This document shows positions 7,461 through 17,987 of a stretch of 64,000 bases of DNA, piece after piece. The notes under the pieces were generated by a model. The model did no database searches. It was not told where the DNA came from and saw only the letters and a list, made by a program, of their open reading frames with translations. Made by a program: the position numbers and the translations under genes. Positions within the stretch are counted from its first letter, which is position 1; every line of letters begins with the position of its first letter. Origin of the DNA: Pseudoflavonifractor sp. Marseille-P3106 (GTDB lineage: Bacteria > Bacillota > Clostridia > Oscillospirales > Oscillospiraceae); the NCBI GenBank assembly GCA_900169975.1, contig LT827126.1:124001-188000 (forward strand), in the 5' to 3' direction.

Positions 7461-8888
7461 TCAGCCGCACAGCACATAGCTGGCGTCCGGCTCTCCGCCG
7501 CACATGGCCTCGTCGTAATCCTCCAGCTCATCGTCCTCGTCGTCCTCGTCCCGGGCCTCCGCCAGTTGAGCGCCCATCGTGCGATAGATTAGCCCGTAGC
7601 GAAGGGCATCCGGGGCGTGTGTGATGTCATGGGGTTCCGTGGCGCAGTCTGACGGGTTCTTTTCATTATGCTGAAGGGCGGGAAGGTCCCGGATCAGGCG
7701 GGCGCAGCTGTCAAAAATCTGCAACCCCGGTTTTCCGTCCCGCCTGGTTTTCATATATTCCTTCACCACAAGCCAGCCCTGCACCCGCTGGTTTGAGGCC
7801 TTTACCAGGCCGATCCCGTTTTGCGTGAAGATCTCCGCCATGGTCTTGCCGGTGTCCTTCATGGTGGACCACATATCCGGAGGGGCAACGGTGAACTGAA
7901 CGTATTCATCCGCCGGTGTCAGGGTTCGCATGGCCGCCGCCGCGTCTGAAACGATGAGTCCGGACTCGCAATACTCCCGATACACCCAGACCCTCCCGTC
8001 AAAATCCACGGCAAACCAGTAGCAGGCAAACATATCAAGGCCGTAGTCGAAGGCCCGGTATCTGGGCCATTCCCTCGGGATGATAAAGGGCTTCACCACA
8101 TGGGTCTCGCGCCTGAACTCGCTGAAATACTGTCCCGCCATGGCGTCCCAGTCGCCGTAGCGCCACGCCTGCCGCACGTCGTCCGGCAGCACGTCCAGGG
8201 AGGCGATGTAGTCCCGCTTCTGCTCTGGGGTCAGCGCCGTGTTGTCGTCTACCGTGGCGGCGATGAAGAAGTATTCCTTTGGATTCTCCTTCTCCAGGTC
8301 GTATTCCCTGGTCACGAACAGCCGCTTGACCCATTGGTGCCCCACGCCGCCGGGGTTGCAGGTGAGATAGAACCGCTTCGGGATTTTGTTCACGCCGCGC
8401 AGACAGGCGCCCAGCGTCCGGAATTCATACTCTGTGAAGTGGGTGGCCTCGTCCATGAAAATCCAGTCGTATTCCTGGCCCTGATACTCCGTGATGGCGT
8501 TTGCGCTCTGTAAGTGCCCAAACCGGATGAGGGAGCCGTTGGAAAAGACGATGGTCCGCATCGTGCTGTTGTAGGTCGCCACATACTGCCCGGCGGGCCT
8601 CCCGTCCAGCGTGGCAGAGTTGATGAGAGCTAAAATCGGCTGGATGATGGTGGATTCCATCTCCGGGTAGGTCCGCCGCATGATCAGGATTTTGATGCCT
8701 GAATAGGTCATGGCCCCATGTACCGCCTTGACCCGGACGGCCCAGCTCTTTCCGCCAGCGCGCGCGCCGCCGTATGCGATGTACTTCTGCCTCGCCAGAA
8801 GGAATTGACGCTGCTTCTGATTCGGCGTCCCCATATCCCATTGCACAATACCCTTCGCTGCCTTTGCCGGCCGCCCTCTCTGTGCCAT
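7461..8888 (-). CDS. terL: Phage terminase large subunit (475 aa)
   Basis: This is the ATPase/nuclease motor that packages phage DNA. The Walker A motif is YGGARAGGKSWA at about residues 39-50, and the Walker B is WIFMDEATHF near residue 142. A coupling-type motif, FYLTCNPGGVGHQWVKRLF, follows near residue 182. The C-terminal half has acidic residues suited to the RNase H-like nuclease (FDYGLDMFACYWFAVDFDG; DAPDALRYG near the end). Length is normal for the family. It is followed by the small membrane gene and the portal gene, the standard packaging module. Confidence 0.95.
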   Translation of the reverse strand: MAQRGRPAKAAKGIVQWDMGTPNQKQRQFLLARQKYIAYGGARAGGKSWAVRVKAVHGAMTYSGIKILIMRRTYPEMESTIIQPILALINSATLDGRPAGQYVATYNSTMRTIVFSNGSLIRFGHLQSANAITEYQGQEYDWIFMDEATHFTEYEFRTLGACLRGVNKIPKRFYLTCNPGGVGHQWVKRLFVTREYDLEKENPKEYFFIAATVDDNTALTPEQKRDYIASLDVLPDDVRQAWRYGDWDAMAGQYFSEFRRETHVVKPFIIPREWPRYRAFDYGLDMFACYWFAVDFDGRVWVYREYCESGLIVSDAAAAMRTLTPADEYVQFTVAPPDMWSTMKDTGKTMAEIFTQNGIGLVKASNQRVQGWLVVKEYMKTRRDGKPGLQIFDSCARLIRDLPALQHNEKNPSDCATEPHDITHAPDALRYGLIYRTMGAQLAEARDEDDEDDELEDYDEAMCGGEPDASYVLCG

Positions 8889-11054: not shown

Positions 11055-12173
11055 TCAAAACAGGGCCTGGTAGATCCGGTAGATCCGGTCCCGGTCCAGA
11101 GGAGCAAAGTTGTTGGCCATCAAACGGCTTTGATTGAGCAAAACGGAATCGGTGAACTCGGTTAGATCTTCTTCCGTTACCCCGTATTCCCGAAGCGCCT
11201 TTTTCTGCATCAGAGTACTCAGCAGGCTGTCCAGGGCGGCAAAGACTGCTTCAGGCTCGGGAGAACACTCCAGGGGACCGGCCAGGTGGGCGCTTAGAGC
11301 AGCCATCTCACCACCACGGTCCAATTCCAGGTAGCTGCGCATCACGCCATCGAACAAAGCATAGTTGGATTCTCCGTGAGCGACGTGGTACTTGGCGCCC
11401 AGGGGATAGGACAGGGCATGGACTGCCGCGCAGCCGGCGTTTCCAAAGGCGATTCCGGCGTAAGTGGAGGCCAGCAGAAAATCACCCAACAGGGGGATGC
11501 GGGCATTTGGGCCGTTGGCGGCAATTTTTTGGTAGCCCCGCAGAATCATCTCGGCAGCTCGGTAGCCAAAGAGGCGGGTCGTTTCATTTCCGTTGGGAGA
11601 GAGGCTGGATTCCACGGCGTGAATCAGAGCGTCAATGGAGCTGGTGGCGAAAAAGCGAAATGGGAGGCCGGAGAGCAGCTCAGGCACAAGTACCGCGGAG
11701 TCAGCGTACATTGCGTCGGCAGCCAGGCCTTTTTTGGTTCCGCGGCTGTTCAGGGCGAGAATGGCGATGTTGGTGACCTCGCTGCCGGTGCCGCAGGTGG
11801 TGGGAACCAAGACCAGCTCTTTCTCCTTGACTGCCGGACGGACTCCATCGTAGAGCTCCAAAATGGGGGAGGGGTCCTTCAGGGCAAACAGCTTGGAAAT
11901 GTCTATCACTGTGCCGCCGCCCACGGCAATGATCCGCCGGTGGTGATCCTTGATGTCGCGGTACATGGCCTCTGCCATGTCATCGGAGGGTTCGCCCTGT
12001 CCGTATTTCTCTTGAAAGAGTACGTCGCATTTCAAGTCCAGGGCACCGAAATAAGGCTTATAGATGTACTCGTTGGTGATGACCAGGTCGCCGGGACCGA
12101 GGCCGAAAGCCTCGGCAAACGCAGCGGCGGTGTCGTAGCGGTAGAGCGTGGGTTTGATCATCAGTTGTCTCAT
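11055..12173 (-). CDS. 4hbD: 4-hydroxybutyrate dehydrogenase, iron-type alcohol dehydrogenase (372 aa)
   Basis: The enzyme interconverts 4-hydroxybutyrate and succinate semialdehyde with NAD, a step in fermentation of succinate or GABA to butyrate. The sequence closely follows the clostridial 4HbD pattern: FQEKYGQGEPSD near residue 54, the nucleotide loop AVGGGTVIDISK near 83, VPTTCGTGSEVTN near 122, and LREYGVTEEDL near the end. The expected metal ligands are present: Asp and His in SSIDALIHAVE, and two His in AVHALSYPLGAKYHVAHGE. The start ATG 12173 has a GAGGTGA site. It is the second gene of an operon behind a membrane transporter and a sigma-54 promoter, so substrate uptake and oxidation are probably induced together. 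Confidence 0.92.
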   Translation of the reverse strand: MRQLMIKPTLYRYDTAAAFAEAFGLGPGDLVITNEYIYKPYFGALDLKCDVLFQEKYGQGEPSDDMAEAMYRDIKDHHRRIIAVGGGTVIDISKLFALKDPSPILELYDGVRPAVKEKELVLVPTTCGTGSEVTNIAILALNSRGTKKGLAADAMYADSAVLVPELLSGLPFRFFATSSIDALIHAVESSLSPNGNETTRLFGYRAAEMILRGYQKIAANGPNARIPLLGDFLLASTYAGIAFGNAGCAAVHALSYPLGAKYHVAHGESNYALFDGVMRSYLELDRGGEMAALSAHLAGPLECSPEPEAVFAALDSLLSTLMQKKALREYGVTEEDLTEFTDSVLLNQSRLMANNFAPLDRDRIYRIYQALF

Positions 12174-12218: not shown

Positions 12219-13694
12219 TCAGGCCTGCTCGGGCTGTCTTTTTTTGCGAAAGACTTCCGTGGCGTCCACAACCAGCCATACAATGACGCCCACCAGCAGA
12301 GCCTGGGCGGGAGTGTAGTAGGCCAGGGCGGCGGCAATGATACACGCGATGCCCCGGTCGTTGGCGGTGGAGCACATGCGCATCCCGATGTTGCCGCAGG
12401 CGAATGCCTGCACGCCCATGGTGATGCCGAAGAAGATGGCAAAGGCAGGCTTGATCAGGGTGACAAGGGGAAGGATCAGCACGGCGATGACGGTGGCCGC
12501 GCGGAAGGTGCAGACGCCGTCCCAGTAGGTGTGCAGGGTATTATAACCGCGCTTGTAGCGCTCGGTGATGGTCAGGAGGCCGGAGGCCCACAGTGGGCCG
12601 CACATGGGCACCCAAGGGGCAAAGAGGGACATGATGGCGTTGCGCAGGAAGCTCACCAGGTTGGAGCGGCCAGCGTCAAAAATGACAGTTTCATCGCTGC
12701 GGTGGGCGGTGGCCTCGGTAACGACCTCTTTGGCCAGCACGAAATCGGAGAAGGCGATGATATAGGTGGTCAGGGCGCTGGGAATGGCGGCCAGGAAGAA
12801 AGAGGCTGCCGGGAACCCGATTCCAAAGATGGTAAAGTGCTCCAGCACAAAGCCAAAGCTCAGAGGCGTCAGCCCCCATTGGATTACGGGCAGAGGGATC
12901 TCCTTCAGCAGGACGGGCGCGAGGATAATGGCAAAGAGCTGTGCCGGGACGACACCTTGGTTTCGTATGACACGCCAGAAATTGCTGGTTTGGGCCTTAC
13001 GGGCAAACCAAGGGTTGAACAGGAAGAAATAGGACATCAAAACAGCGATGGCGACCGTCCAGGGAGCCTTGGGCATCCGGGCGGAGAACACATTGATGCC
13101 GGCTGTGATTCCGGCGCCCAGGACAATCCCGGCCTTGATGCCCATAGGGACCGCGTCTACCAGCATCCGGCCCAAACCGGTGGCACCCATAATAAGGAAG
13201 CACAGGGCTACCAGCATTTGCAGGGCGATCATGGCATAGATTCGGTCTACCTGGCCTGTGGCATAGTTGGGAAGATCCCACTGCTGCAGGAATTTCAGCG
13301 TCAGGGGCAGGGCGGGAGTGATCCAGCCGGGGACGACCGGGTCACCCATCAGAGAGGGCAGATAGTAGCAAATCGCATTTAGAACGCCGAAGGTCAGGGC
13401 CATGAGAAACACGCTGTTTTCATCAAAGCCGAGTGCGGCAATGTTGGCGGGGTCATCCAGGCCGAAAGTGGTCATGGTGGTGGTGACGCCGGCGCCCAGA
13501 CAAGCCACGCCCAAAAACAGGGCGGCAGCCATCTCGGTCCAGGACCACTCGTGGTGGATGAGGGGTATGCGGATCATGAACGGTCCAATTTTGATACCGG
13601 GCTGTTCGGCACCGTAGGCACGCTTTTTCAGAGGAAAGGTGCCGGACAGGAAGCCCTCGGGTGTGACGACTTTTTTCTCGGTGGTTTCGCTCAT
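12219..13694 (-). CDS. Polytopic membrane transporter, NCS2-like, probable 4-hydroxybutyrate/related acid uptake (491 aa)
   Basis: About 12 hydrophobic segments are visible, with loops such as VPMGIKAGIVLGAGITAGIN and WITPALPLTLKFLQQW that recall the NCS2 (uracil/xanthine permease-like) fold. I chose ATG 13694, which has the site GAGGAGG nine bases upstream; the frame is open to 13886, but that extra part covers the sigma-54 promoter and has no ribosome site. It is the first gene of the transporter-4hbD pair. The substrate is not visible in the sequence; from its partner I infer 4-hydroxybutyrate, GABA or a related short acid. The protein ends RKKRQPEQA, a positively charged tail suited to the cytoplasmic face. 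Confidence 0.7.
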   Translation of the reverse strand: MSETTEKKVVTPEGFLSGTFPLKKRAYGAEQPGIKIGPFMIRIPLIHHEWSWTEMAAALFLGVACLGAGVTTTMTTFGLDDPANIAALGFDENSVFLMALTFGVLNAICYYLPSLMGDPVVPGWITPALPLTLKFLQQWDLPNYATGQVDRIYAMIALQMLVALCFLIMGATGLGRMLVDAVPMGIKAGIVLGAGITAGINVFSARMPKAPWTVAIAVLMSYFFLFNPWFARKAQTSNFWRVIRNQGVVPAQLFAIILAPVLLKEIPLPVIQWGLTPLSFGFVLEHFTIFGIGFPAASFFLAAIPSALTTYIIAFSDFVLAKEVVTEATAHRSDETVIFDAGRSNLVSFLRNAIMSLFAPWVPMCGPLWASGLLTITERYKRGYNTLHTYWDGVCTFRAATVIAVLILPLVTLIKPAFAIFFGITMGVQAFACGNIGMRMCSTANDRGIACIIAAALAYYTPAQALLVGVIVWLVVDATEVFRKKRQPEQA

Positions 13695-13822: not shown

Positions 13823-13838
13823 TGCAAGACGCATGCCA
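13823..13838 (-). promoter_or_regulatory. Sigma-54 (-24/-12) promoter of transporter-4hbD
   Basis: On the minus strand the 16 bases TGGCATGCGTCTTGCA match the sigma-54 consensus TGGCAYRNNNNTTGCW at every fixed position. It lies about 130 bases upstream of the transporter ATG, so the leader is about 115 bases long. Confidence 0.88.
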
Positions 13839-13949
13839 ACTTTGCACCGTGCTGAGAAAAGCGGCCCGTGACTTCCACACAGACAAGACTGCGTATCATA
13901 AAACGGAGAATAGGGCGTCGCAAGTGTGACATGGAGTGTGACAAAAAAG

Positions 13950-13986
13950 TGTGACACAATAACACATAATGTGCTATTGTGTCACA
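13950..13986. promoter_or_regulatory. 37-bp palindrome, probable upstream activating site
   Basis: Bases 13950-13986 form an almost perfect palindrome with outer arms TGTGACACAATA and TATTGTGTCACA; 17 of 18 pairs match around a central A. It is centred about 130 bases upstream of the -24 element of the transporter promoter, the usual distance for sigma-54 activator sites. Two more TGTGAC half-sites lie at 13925-13930 and 13937-13942. The adjacent AcoR-like protein is the obvious candidate to bind it. It also lies about 155 bases upstream of the activator gene, so autoregulation is possible. The rest of 13695-14141 is AT-rich and holds no gene. Confidence 0.75.
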
Positions 13987-14141: not shown

Positions 14142-16148
14142 ATGTGGGTGGACCAGGAAAAGGTCCTGGCGGCAAAGCGCGCCTTTCAGAGGGGGGAGCC
14201 CTTTGACCCATCAGTCGTCCGTCCCGTTATTCTGGAGTCGTGGAAGCGTTCCCGGGCATTTGGCGTTCGAATGGATACCCGGCTGCCCCGTATCCTGACC
14301 GGGGAGGAACTGGCGGAGCGGTGCCGGCAGCGGCGGGAGTTCTGTGATGTGGCACTGCCCTTTGTGGAGAGCCTGCGGGAGTTTGCCACCGGAGCCGGAT
14401 TCGTGATGACGGTCTGCGACGAGGAGGTGTATGTCCTTCAGGTAACCGGGGACGAGGATCTGCAGCAGGTCATCCGGGCTGGAGGAATGGTGGAGGGGTG
14501 CAACCGCAACGAGCGGAGGATCGGCACAAACGGCGTGGGCACACCGGTGGAGACAGGGCAGCCGGTCCAGGTGTTCAGCGAGGAGCACTATTTTGGCCCC
14601 AGCCGCAAATGGGGCTGTACCGGCGCACCCATCTTTCGTCCGGATGGCTCCGTGGCGGGAGGGATCTGCCTCATCAGCCCCTATGAGAAGGTGGGGGCAC
14701 AGACGCTGGCTCTTGCGGTTTCGGTGGCGGAGAATATCCGTCGGCAGATGAAGATGCGGGAGACCTTTGAGACGCTGGATCACCTGCGGCGCAATCTGAG
14801 TATCATCATAGAGACCTGGCCGTCCGGGATTCTGCTGCTGAACCAGGATCTGACTGTTGTGCAGGCCAATGCCGGCGCGGCGCGGCTTTTGATGCTGCCC
14901 CGGGAGGCCTTGGAGGGAGCTGCCTTCTTTGAGCTGATCGGGAGACGGGCCCTGAGGGAGTCGGAGGTTCGCCGCGGGGTGACGGACCGCCTGGTCACCA
15001 TTGAACGGGGGACCCAGACGATGTCGCTGTCCTTTTCCATTCAGCGGGCCGATGCGGGCTCCTGCGTGGTCATGTTTGAGACGGCGGAGACCCTGCATCG
15101 AAAGGTCAGCCGGATCGTTGGGTCGGATGCCCGGTTTCGCTTTGACGACATCATCGGCGGTTCCCCGGCCCTGCGGGATGCGGTGGAGCTGGCAAGGGTT
15201 GCGGCCGGAAACAACTCCAATGTCCTTCTCAGCGGGGAGAGCGGCACAGGAAAAGAGCTTTTTGCCCAGGCGATCCACAATGCCAGCGCCCGTCGGCGGG
15301 AGCCCTTTGTGGCCATCAACTGCGGGGCTTTGCCCAAAAGCCTGATCGAGAGTGAACTTTTCGGCTATGAGGGTGGCAGCTTCACAGGGGCCAACCGGGA
15401 TGGGCGGGCCGGAAAGTTTGAGCTGGCCAATGGAGGGACCATCTTTCTGGATGAGATCGGCGACATGCCGTTCGACGTGCAGGTGAGCCTGCTGCGGGTG
15501 CTTCAAACCCGGGAGGTCAGCCGGATCGGCTCCAGCAAGACGGTCAAGGTGGATGTGCGGGTGATCTCGGCAACCAACCAGAACCTCATTAAGGCCATCG
15601 AGCGGAATGAATTCCGCAGCGACCTCTATTACCGGCTCAACGTTTTTGACATCCGCATTCCGCCTCTGCGGGATCGACAGGGCGACATCGTGTCTCTGGC
15701 GGACTATTTCTTTCGGAAATACGCCTCGGATCTGCCTCACTGCCGGATGACGGGGCTCTCGCCGGAGGCATATGCTCTTTTGTGCCGCTATCAATGGCCG
15801 GGAAATGTCCGGGAGTTGGAAAATGCCGTGGAGCGGGCGATCTATTTGGCCAAGTCCGATCAAATCGGCCCAGAGTGCTTTCCGGAGCATATTCGTGCCG
15901 CCGCTTTGGGTGAGACGGCCGAAGAGATGGGAAAGGAACCCATGCAGCCGGAGGCCGGCAGCGGGGCGGCGGGGCGAAGCGGCTGCTCTCTGCGGGAGAT
16001 TGAGCTGCGGCAGATCCGCAGAGCCCTGTCTCTCAGCGGAGGAAACGTGAGCCGGGCAGGGGAGCTCCTGGGGCTTTCCCGCAGAACCGTCTACCGAAAG
16101 ATGGAGCGATACGGCCTGGATATTTCCAACTTCCGGACGGAGGGCTGA
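14142..16148 (+). CDS. Sigma-54-dependent activator, AcoR type (GAF-PAS-AAA+-Fis HTH; 668 aa)
   Basis: An enhancer-binding protein that activates sigma-54 RNA polymerase. Domains in order: an AcoR-type N-terminal region and GAF sensor (about 10-215, with NERRIGTNGVGTPVETGQP), a PAS-like domain (about 225-325), the AAA+ domain (about 340-570) and a Fis-type helix-turn-helix at the end (GGNVSRAGELLGLSRRTVYR). Walker A is GESGTGKE near 364, Walker B GGTIFLDEIGD near 430, and the sigma-54 contact loop reads GSFTGA near 411 instead of GAFTGA. The start ATG has AGGAGG upstream. It is divergent from the transporter-4hbD operon with the palindrome between them, so it probably senses 4-hydroxybutyrate or a related compound. 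Confidence 0.93.
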   Translation: MWVDQEKVLAAKRAFQRGEPFDPSVVRPVILESWKRSRAFGVRMDTRLPRILTGEELAERCRQRREFCDVALPFVESLREFATGAGFVMTVCDEEVYVLQVTGDEDLQQVIRAGGMVEGCNRNERRIGTNGVGTPVETGQPVQVFSEEHYFGPSRKWGCTGAPIFRPDGSVAGGICLISPYEKVGAQTLALAVSVAENIRRQMKMRETFETLDHLRRNLSIIIETWPSGILLLNQDLTVVQANAGAARLLMLPREALEGAAFFELIGRRALRESEVRRGVTDRLVTIERGTQTMSLSFSIQRADAGSCVVMFETAETLHRKVSRIVGSDARFRFDDIIGGSPALRDAVELARVAAGNNSNVLLSGESGTGKELFAQAIHNASARRREPFVAINCGALPKSLIESELFGYEGGSFTGANRDGRAGKFELANGGTIFLDEIGDMPFDVQVSLLRVLQTREVSRIGSSKTVKVDVRVISATNQNLIKAIERNEFRSDLYYRLNVFDIRIPPLRDRQGDIVSLADYFFRKYASDLPHCRMTGLSPEAYALLCRYQWPGNVRELENAVERAIYLAKSDQIGPECFPEHIRAAALGETAEEMGKEPMQPEAGSGAAGRSGCSLREIELRQIRRALSLSGGNVSRAGELLGLSRRTVYRKMERYGLDISNFRTEG

Positions 16149-16164
16149 GCCCGGATCGGAAACT

Positions 16165-16180
16165 TGGCATGGCACTTGCA
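16165..16180 (+). promoter_or_regulatory. Second sigma-54 (-24/-12) promoter
   Basis: TGGCATGGCACTTGCA matches the consensus TGGCAYRNNNNTTGCW at all fixed positions. It lies in the 87-base gap between the activator gene and the first of three membrane-protein genes, 55 bases before that start codon. No palindrome like the one at 13950 is visible nearby. Confidence 0.85.
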
Positions 16181-16235
16181 ATGTATTTAGGATAGACGGA
16201 ACCGGAAGTTACGACTTTGGAGAGGAGAAGGCACA

Positions 16236-16973
16236 ATGGACAACACTATGCGGTCGCGGCCCATCGTATCCACCGCCGCGTTCCTTCTGGCCGTGGGCGG
16301 GGAGCTCTATCTTTTGCGCGGGCATCTTGCGGGGCTGCCCGCAGAAGCACCGATCCCACTTTTGATGGAGCTCTTCCTGTGCGGGGTGATCCTGATCGGG
16401 GCAATCTGCAGCGCCACTCCCAAGGGATGGCGGGGGAAGGCGGGCTGTCGGGCGGCTTACCTTCTTTTAGCGGGCTACCTGGCGTTTAATATTGCCCACT
16501 TTTCCTTTTTCAGCAGGCTTTACTTAGAGGGCATCACCACTGAGTATCCCAGCTACGCTCCGGCGCTGGCCGCTTTGAAACTGGTTCTGGTGTCGGTGGG
16601 AGTTGTGGCAGCGACCCCGGTGGCCTCGGGGCCGGACCGCAGGGAGTACGCCGACAGACTTTGGAGCGCCGCACGCCGCCAGCAGAAAACATGGGCGGAT
16701 GGGGCGGCGGTGCGTGGGTCCGACGCCGACAAAGACCCGGCGGCCCAGGCGGCCCAGAGACTGCGCCGGGAACTGACCGCTGATGAGCTGGAGAGGCTGA
16801 AGCGCACACTGTTGGCTGAGCCGTCGCCGGAGGCGGAGGGAAATTCACCGGAGGCGGCCGATCCCTCAGACCCAGAGGCGCCGGAGGAGGCGGGAAAAGA
16901 GTCTCCGGGATCTCACGAGGAGACGGGGAAATGGGCCGGTTTTGAGGGGTGGAAGGGCTGGGGCTGCTACTGA
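16236..16973 (+). CDS. Unrecognised membrane protein with charged C-terminal tail, first gene of a sigma-54 trio (245 aa)
   Basis: Four hydrophobic segments are seen (about residues 9-27, 42-60, 72-90 and 107-128), followed by a cytoplasmic tail of about 115 residues. The tail is rich in Ala, Glu and Arg with a helix (RRELTADELERLKRTLLAE) and an acidic linker. The ribosome site AGGAGAAGG precedes ATG 16236. I do not recognise the family. The gene follows a perfect sigma-54 promoter and is followed by two more membrane-protein genes with overlapping or tight spacing, so the three probably form one complex or pathway. Involvement in 4-hydroxybutyrate metabolism is inference from position. Confidence 0.7.
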   Translation: MDNTMRSRPIVSTAAFLLAVGGELYLLRGHLAGLPAEAPIPLLMELFLCGVILIGAICSATPKGWRGKAGCRAAYLLLAGYLAFNIAHFSFFSRLYLEGITTEYPSYAPALAALKLVLVSVGVVAATPVASGPDRREYADRLWSAARRQQKTWADGAAVRGSDADKDPAAQAAQRLRRELTADELERLKRTLLAEPSPEAEGNSPEAADPSDPEAPEEAGKESPGSHEETGKWAGFEGWKGWGCY

Positions 16974-16996
16974 CAGCCCGGAAAGGAGGAGAAGCT

Positions 16997-17635
16997 ATGG
17001 GCGCGGTGGCGATTCGAATCGGTTACGCGGCGATGGTTGCGGCCATCATCCTGGCATTTCTATTTTCCCGGCGGGGAGAGAAAGAACTCCGCTTCGCGGT
17101 GGATCGGTTTGCCGAGGCATTTCTCGGCCTTTCCAACCTGGTCAGTCCCTGTCCGCCCACGCGGCGGCTGGCGGTGCGGCGAGTTGGCGGCGGCGTCCAT
17201 CCCTTTCCGCCGGAACAACAGCCGGAAGAACTTCGGGCGATCCTGCGCGTGGGAGCGGAGGAGGAGGCTGCCGGCCTTTATCAGAGGGCTGAGGCCGCCG
17301 CGGTGGAGGTCCGCCGCCGCAGCCGCAGGAGCCGCCGCCTGCGGGAGCAATTTGGGCAGCCAATCACCGACCTGTGCTTCCTGGCCTGCGTTTTTATCGA
17401 GGGGTGCCAAGACCTTTCCACGGTTGACAGCGTCAACCGGGAAAATGCATTTACACGCTTTCTGACTGGTCAGGAGGAGCATCGGATGGCTTTGCTCAAG
17501 CGGATCTCCAGGGAGTTCAACGACGCATTTTTAGAACTGAATCAAAACTATGATCTTGCCGCCCTGAGCGAAAAGGAGCAGGCGCAGAGCACTGGGCGGG
17601 CAAAGACGGGACGCAGAGGAGGAGAGGCAATATGA
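16997..17635 (+). CDS. Unrecognised single-span membrane protein, second gene of a sigma-54 trio (212 aa)
   Basis: The start ATG 16997 has the ribosome site AAGGAGGAG; the frame is open from 16949 but without a site. One hydrophobic segment occupies residues about 5-25 (IGYAAMVAAIILAFLFS). The rest is cytoplasmic, basic and helical, with an Arg-rich stretch (VEVRRRSRRSRRLREQFG) and a C-terminal helix region (RISREFNDAFLELNQNYDL). I do not recognise it. The stop TGA overlaps the ATG of the next gene, so translation is coupled. Confidence 0.65.
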   Translation: MGAVAIRIGYAAMVAAIILAFLFSRRGEKELRFAVDRFAEAFLGLSNLVSPCPPTRRLAVRRVGGGVHPFPPEQQPEELRAILRVGAEEEAAGLYQRAEAAAVEVRRRSRRSRRLREQFGQPITDLCFLACVFIEGCQDLSTVDSVNRENAFTRFLTGQEEHRMALLKRISREFNDAFLELNQNYDLAALSEKEQAQSTGRAKTGRRGGEAI

Positions 17636-17916
17636 GCTGGCTGGAGGTATTTCAATACGCGATCTATGGCCTGGGAGGAGCGGTGGTGCTCCTGTGGCTG
17701 TTCAATTTGAGCCTGGCCATCCGTGGGCGTCGGGAGAGCGTGGCCGCCAGACGGATGATGTTTATTCTGGCCTTCGTCCTGCTCGGACTGAGCATTGCTC
17801 GGAGCTCTCAGCTCTATGGCTCTACCGTGGTATTTGCAAACATCCTGGTGTTAGGATGTATTACGGTGGCCTTTGTGCGCTCGGAACGGGAGAAGAACGA
17901 CGCAGCCCCGGAATGA
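17632..17916 (+). CDS. Unrecognised small membrane protein, third gene of a sigma-54 trio (94 aa)
   Basis: Three hydrophobic segments are seen (about residues 7-28, 42-58 and 63-82) with short charged loops, one being AIRGRRESVAARR, and an acidic tail. The start overlaps the stop of the preceding gene (ATGA). It could be a small subunit of a membrane complex with its two neighbours. No family is recognised. A strong hairpin follows at 17951. Confidence 0.65.
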   Translation: MSWLEVFQYAIYGLGGAVVLLWLFNLSLAIRGRRESVAARRMMFILAFVLLGLSIARSSQLYGSTVVFANILVLGCITVAFVRSEREKNDAAPE

Positions 17917-17950: not shown

Positions 17951-17987
17951 GACGCCCCGCGGAAGATTTCATCTTCCGCGGGGCGTC
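17951..17987. terminator. Strong hairpin after the membrane-protein trio
   Basis: Perfect 17-base arms starting GACGCCCCGCGGAAG enclose a 3-base loop. It lies about 35 bases after the stop codon. No T run follows on the plus strand; a T-rich stretch flanks it on the minus strand. It probably ends the trio transcript. Confidence 0.6.

Follow-up and report, generated by a model that had tools for sequence, protein, structure and literature searches.

Three small membrane proteins (P1, P2, and P3), encoded side by side in the analyzed DNA, a 64-kb stretch of contig C20 (the window), form one module with a PurT-type transporter and, as a rule, an iron-containing dehydrogenase, and P2 is co-inherited with that transporter across phyla. 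All three are real genes, undescribed in the libraries searched; they make up three new protein families without a relative in those libraries, now with a concrete partner. The co-inheritance with the transporter, usually beside the dehydrogenase, suggests a helper complex for the uptake or processing of a short hydroxy acid. Its relevance lies in the handling of 4-hydroxybutyrate en route to butyrate in gut anaerobes and oral treponemes.

The trio is encoded on the plus strand, downstream of a predicted sigma-54 -24/-12 promoter (16165..16180, TGGCATGGCACTTGCA) located 56 bp 5′ of the P1 start codon. The initial annotation had described a perfect -24/-12 site ahead of three linked membrane-protein genes, and both elements were recovered: the site is present at 16165-16180 (+), and the three linked open reading frames exist, with four, one, and three spans that fit the sequence and, for P1 and P2, the AlphaFold helices as well. 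P1 (16236..16973, 245 aa) is separated from P2 (16997..17635) by 23 bp, and the start of P3 (17632..17916, 94 aa) overlaps the P2 stop by 4 bp (ATGA, stop/start). The ATG at 16997 (212 aa) is the likelier P2 start, rather than the listed GTG at 16949, because the homolog alignments begin there. Directly 3′ of P3 lies a 17-pair hairpin (17951..17987), a possible transcript end whose T-rich tail is found on the minus strand only. Perfect matches to TGGCAYN5TTGCW number nine on both strands of the 3.12-Mb genome, compared with three for a reversed control pattern; from this density, the probability that any one gene has such a site, correctly oriented, in the 100 bp preceding it was calculated to be about 1.4e-4. 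Two of these nine sites flank a single sigma-54 activator gene (14142-16148), one on the minus-strand transporter side and one on the trio side, the latter beginning 16 bp past the end of the activator gene.

The AlphaFold model of P2 (mean pLDDT 86, pTM 0.77) revealed a 48-residue N-terminal helix that contains the single transmembrane span, followed by a β-hairpin and a helical domain assigned to the cytosol. In the P1 model (pLDDT 75, pTM 0.52), four spans are accompanied by cytosolic helices and a charged tail that is disordered from residue 201 onward. P3 packs three spans into about 90 residues, as judged by eye from hydropathy. Charge distributions predict N-in/C-in topology for P1, and N-out/C-in for both P2 and P3. 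The invariant residues include Glu45, Tyr81, and Lys115 in a seven-sequence alignment of P1, Cys137, His162, and Arg163 in seven P2 sequences, and Arg41, Arg57, Arg83, and Glu85 in eight P3 sequences.

The trio had been called unfamiliar, an assessment borne out by the profile searches (Pfam, NCBIfam, and PADLOC, where scanned) and by fold searches with P1 and P2, which gave no known family. The Pfam cut-off was reached by none of the window proteins, nor by seven P2, seven P1, and eight P3 sequences, and the P2 set was without any match. NCBIfam yielded no match above cut-off for the trio proteins of the window and of a second locus (L093), and PADLOC yielded none up to E 0.1 for the same six proteins. 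Sub-cut-off Pfam scores were obtained for some P3 proteins with 7TMR-DISM (3 of 8 members at E ≤0.1, best 3e-4, 21.2 of 29 bits), and for one P1 with PriC (E 0.005, 17.1 of 23.3 bits); five further Pfam families matched P1 with a best E of 0.0098, judged by E-value. The sole PHROG match was a weak one to P2 (E 0.005), annotated there as of unknown function. Foldseek searches of the PDB returned no match at E 0.001 for the P2 model (194 up to E 10) or the P1 model, and at the same threshold the P2 model matched none of the viral models in BFVD. Literature on PurT/7TAK, the C. viride hydroxybutyrate dehydrogenase, 4-hydroxybutyrate together with sigma-54 or transport, and WGWG C-termini describes such a trio in no title or abstract opening.

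Several specific identities were considered and rejected. P3 has the size and three-span layout of a SemiSWEET; however, the profile similarity (E 0.084) is not significant, and the PQ motif, a SemiSWEET feature, is missing from all eight P3 sequences. Assignment of P3 to 7TMR-DISM was dismissed with a best score of 21.2 bits against a cut-off of 29, and assignment of P1 as a TRAP small subunit was dismissed because no such family occurred among the Pfam matches of seven members. An energizer of the ExbB-ExbD/MotA-MotB kind found no family match; moreover, the P2 domain would lie inside by the charge rule, whereas the single-span partner of such an energizer has its domain outside the cytosol. 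Phage or defense genes were rejected on empty searches of PADLOC (the six proteins above) and of viral models (P2), the lone weak PHROG match to P2 notwithstanding.

That the trio represents real genes, and not chance reading frames, follows from the pN/pS ratios of its homologs, which indicate purifying selection (0.19-0.63 overall: 0.19-0.22 for the Treponema pairs, and 0.22-0.63 for the L093-L096 and L089-L090 pairs). Synonymous sites approach saturation in the more distant pairs, including those with the window genes, for which the ratios are 0.62-0.74. Divergence is nonetheless rapid. The homologs are 22-44% identical to the window proteins, compared with 73-82% for the transporter, and the transporter ratios in the L093-L096 and L089-L090 pairs (0.06-0.12) are far below the 0.22-0.63 of the trio.

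A short C-terminal motif, W-x-G-W-G, marks most P1 and a few P2 proteins. In the window it forms the tip of P1 (WKGWGCY, codons 16950..16970, plus strand). A survey of 12,995 stop-ended frames of at least 40 residues, drawn from 1.03 Mb of partly overlapping DNA, identified 11 distinct tails of this type, every one of them belonging to P1 or P2. The motif ends 9 of 11 P1 and 2 of 12 P2 proteins; it is missing from the P1 of two loci (L092 and L095) and from the other ten P2. Because the tip is conserved while its tether is disordered, it reads as a probable docking peptide, and provides a ready handle for identifying what the complex binds.

The transporter partner (12219..13694, minus strand) aligns over almost its full length with the ‘Putative membrane protein PurT’ (PDB 7tak, E 9e-90), which we take to be a nucleobase transporter of the NAT/NCS2 type. 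PurT is the counterpart of the trio's partner, not of the trio. The window transporter differs from it in being located with hydroxy-acid genes, and in belonging to a subfamily with an additional conserved N-terminus, P(E/D)-x-F...FPLKK, which is present in 9 of 9 close members and missing from all 14 paralogs compared. The neighboring dehydrogenase (11055..12173, minus strand) resembles Fe-dependent 4-hydroxybutyrate dehydrogenases, with Cvir-Hbd2 as the best solved relative (PDB 30sm, E 7e-148), which is an enzyme and includes no membrane trio. The window enzyme scored below every NCBIfam cut-off, and far below that of the 4-hydroxybutyrate dehydrogenase model; 4-hydroxybutyrate is its likely substrate.

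When 400 genomes of the family were searched with P1, only G382 (E 5e-36) matched strongly besides the window's own genome. Weak matches were dropped, for P1 in 28 of the 30 genomes at E ≤0.05 (best 4.6e-5, with two internal stops, the others ≥0.007), and for P2 in 21 of 22 genomes (best 0.002). The G382 locus (L089, also L091) encodes P3, P1, P2, a regulator, the transporter (80% identical), the dehydrogenase (57%), and 4-hydroxybutyryl-CoA dehydratase (AbfD), in an order that differs from that of the window and with the orientation of P1 reversed. Scanning genome contigs with two 7-residue patterns from the transporter alignment identified eight loci, one of them G382 again, from an uncultured Oscillospiraceae bacterium, Faecalibacterium sp. 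UBA7177, two uncultured Lachnospiraceae, Candidatus Alectryocaccobium, a Clostridiales MAG, a MAG filed as Planctomycetaceae, and Treponema vincentii. Seven of the eight have trio genes close to the transporter, P3 in every case, and all three are present in L090, L091, L092, L093, L095, and L096, where gene order and strand vary. L097 carries P3 and a P2 split into two frames, and P1 was not found there; this is the locus (L097/L108) of the MAG filed as Planctomycetaceae, in which the binning or a gene transfer is questionable.

In T. vincentii (L094) the transporter, dehydrogenase, and AbfD are clustered, with a P1-P2 pair at a distance of about 383 kb. In three further Treponema genomes, P1 and P2 are adjacent and divergent, and about 124-142 kb separate them from the transporter. 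No P3 was seen around P1-P2 in any of the four Treponema stretches (18 kb each for the three further genomes). With P3 unseen in these stretches and P1 unfound in L097, the full trio may not be required in every case. The P1 of T. vincentii OMZ 806 (L107, 9413-10112) occupies two frames, and a single frame in three related genomes.

A dehydrogenase relative was found near the transporter in seven of nine loci (the window, L089, L090, L093, L094, L095, and L096), and was not seen in the DNA examined of L092 and L097. AbfD occurs in three of the nine: that of L095 matches 4-hydroxybutyryl-CoA dehydratase 1u8v (E 1e-236), and those of L089 and L094 are 77-78% identical to it. In the window's own genome, an AbfD (78% identical) adjoins a paralogous transporter on another contig with a perfect sigma-54 promoter site. 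This locus (L030 10232-13443, contig C18 about 390-393 kb) combines the paralog (42%) with a GAFTGA activator, the sigma-54 site, and AbfD, and holds no trio. No trio gene was detected near paralogous transporters of 33-42% identity (17 loci, 3163 frames; best trio-profile E 0.12), indicating that the PurT-type fold itself needs no trio helper.

Profile searches of 15 genomes placed P2 and the close transporter together in the same 12, and both were absent from the other three. Where measured, the transporters of the 12 P2 genomes are 73-82% identical to that of the window. The transporter is in two pieces in G1375; none was found in G1372, and only distant relatives were found in G1373 and G1376. 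The P2 profile matched 8 of 8 genomes of the transporter-scan loci, 1 of 398 genomes of the window's phylum (its own), and 2 of 299 genomes of the family of G677 (G677 itself and G680, both of which carry the transporter). Among seven genomes of the genus Treponema, P2 is present in exactly the four with the transporter (chance 1 in 35), even though P1-P2 and the transporter are about 124-383 kb apart. Nine loci are a small set. Since it was the transporter or P2 that led to most of the 12 positive genomes, the fair tests are the Treponema genus and G382; the latter was found through P1 rather than the transporter and still has the entire cluster. Single-sequence P2 searches of 59 other relatives and of 294 other genomes of the order returned no strong match, and a single-sequence P2 scan of genome contigs and a P2 tblastn search of plasmids produced no lead.

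Distance matrices of the transporter, P1, and P2 from nine taxa are correlated (Mantel r 0.88-0.93, reached by 0 of 5000 permutations), a correlation that shared ancestry could also give. In the trees of P1 and P2, branches are long and few forks have support, and co-occurrence was therefore relied on instead of tree shape. A link of the trio to the transporter, and usually to a 4hbD-like dehydrogenase, is supported: all 12 P2 genomes have the transporter, and the dehydrogenase is near it in seven of nine loci. The initial annotation had suggested examining Oscillospiraceae genomes for co-occurrence with 4hbD; the association of the trio with the transporter, and usually the dehydrogenase, stood, and the system proved wider, extending to Lachnospiraceae and Treponema.

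The regulatory region of the window is organized around the activator (14142..16148, plus strand), in which domain matches identified GAF/PAS, AAA+, and Fis helix-turn-helix segments and whose loop motif is GSFTGA (GAFTGA-type). The genome also encodes RpoN. On the transporter side, a predicted -24/-12 promoter (13823..13838, minus strand, TGGCATGCGTCTTGCA) lies near a likely activator binding region (13925..13986), comprising a 37-bp near-perfect palindrome (13950-13986) with two more TGTGACA half-sites just upstream. Six of the 11 half-site matches of the whole window fall in this region, with no other between 11000 and 18400. They lie near the transporter promoter and about 2.2 kb from that of the trio, and it is plausible that the activator of the transporter operon also controls the trio. 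A 656-codon open frame antisense to the activator (14211-16181, minus strand) is probably a by-product of GC-rich coding.

The initial annotation had treated sigma-54 control as a defining feature of the system, which was not supported. Only three of nine loci, some of which are cut by contig ends, have a linked activator-like gene, and GAFTGA is missing in two of these three: the AAA+ regulators directly after P2 in L089 (11286-12710) and L090 (8141-9583) are of the sigma-54 activator kind and lack this loop. RpoN scored above cut-off in seven of nine genomes, G675 and G680 being the exceptions. Outside the window, no site with 0-1 mismatches was found within 500 bp before the trio or the close-subfamily transporter, the upstream DNA being short for the L095 and L092 transporters. 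No such site occurs anywhere in L089, L090, L092, L093, L095, L096, L097, L146, L147, L126-L128, or L134; L107 and L145 have one 1-mismatch site each, more than 4 kb from P1/P2, and a looser pattern gave one match, before P2 of L090. Sigma-54 control as a general rule was thus ruled out, since the window alone among trio loci has a perfect or one-mismatch site before the transporter or trio, and it looks like a local arrangement. In T. vincentii (L094 7651-8260), divergent perfect sigma-54 sites precede a second transporter and AbfD, and none precedes the trio-type transporter. For Clostridiales, an abfD operon under sigma-54 control (XanR-abfD) has been described before (PMC6615313), and the paralogous transporter beside AbfD in the window genome likewise has a sigma-54 promoter. 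Three passages of that report name no such membrane trio, and the other trio loci are without such a promoter.

We tentatively favor, with somewhat less than even confidence, a reading in which the trio consists of dedicated accessory membrane proteins that dock to a partner and belong to one PurT-type subfamily serving a short hydroxy-acid pathway, most likely that of 4-hydroxybutyrate. P1, P2, and P3 would form a membrane assembly with the P2 domain and P1 helices facing the cytosol, and the W-x-G-W-G tips at the ends of flexible tails would bind a partner in the cytosol, either the dehydrogenase or the transporter's conserved N-terminal extension. Such docking may link uptake with the first enzyme reaction, or may gate the transporter. 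For the organism of the window, the trio would be switched on together with the transporter through sigma-54, with regulation differing elsewhere. The initial proposal of a membrane complex for short-chain hydroxy-acid metabolism survives as to the module with the transporter and the usual 4hbD-like dehydrogenase, and fails as to sigma-54 as its hallmark. We know of no accessory subunits of PurT-like transporters, and transporters of this fold are not known to require partner proteins; an obligatory accessory complex, if true, would therefore be new. A bolder and rather doubtful extension is that the PurT-type transporter works as a multi-protein machine, in which P1-P2(-P3) with W-x-G-W-G tails holds the dehydrogenase or gates the transporter via its N-terminal extension, and that this transport metabolon was transferred as a whole from one phylum to another.

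Three other explanations were ranked below the accessory docking complex, in the order independent channel, sensor, and passenger. The seven spans of P1 and P3, the invariant charged residues in or at these spans (P1 Glu45 and Lys115; P3 Arg57), and the separation of P1-P2 from the transporter in Treponema would all suit a complex that belongs to the same pathway but performs transport or forms a channel in its own right, exporting for example the product acid or protons, co-regulated with the PurT-type transporter and not attached to it. We consider this unlikely, as there is no significant profile or fold similarity to a transporter or channel, P3 was not found beside P1-P2 in Treponema, and the strict co-inheritance needs a reason when the pathway has its own transporter. 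Less probable again is a role in sensing or regulation, with the trio signaling the state of the substrate or the transporter from the membrane to the cytosol. No signaling domain scores above cut-off, despite the weak similarity of some P3 to the 7TM signaling family 7TMR-DISM, and the PAS-AAA+ regulators without GAFTGA that directly follow P2 in L089 and L090 have no linked equivalent in L092, L093, L095, or L096, barring a weak AAA match in L096 (E 0.008); the cytosolic helical domains and flexible tails would be compatible with such a role.

The least probable explanation, already disfavored, is an unrelated envelope function for a trio that merely travels with the transporter genes. Variable gene order and strand would fit such a passenger, as would the far faster evolution of the trio than of the transporter (pN/pS 0.22-0.63 versus 0.06-0.12 in the same two species pairs). 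However, co-occurrence is kept at a separation of about 124-383 kb, in a different phylum, and P2 was not found outside carriers of the transporter. An open reading frame at 7461-8888 (minus strand) resembles, by eye, a phage terminase large subunit, which suggests prophage DNA in the first 10 kb.
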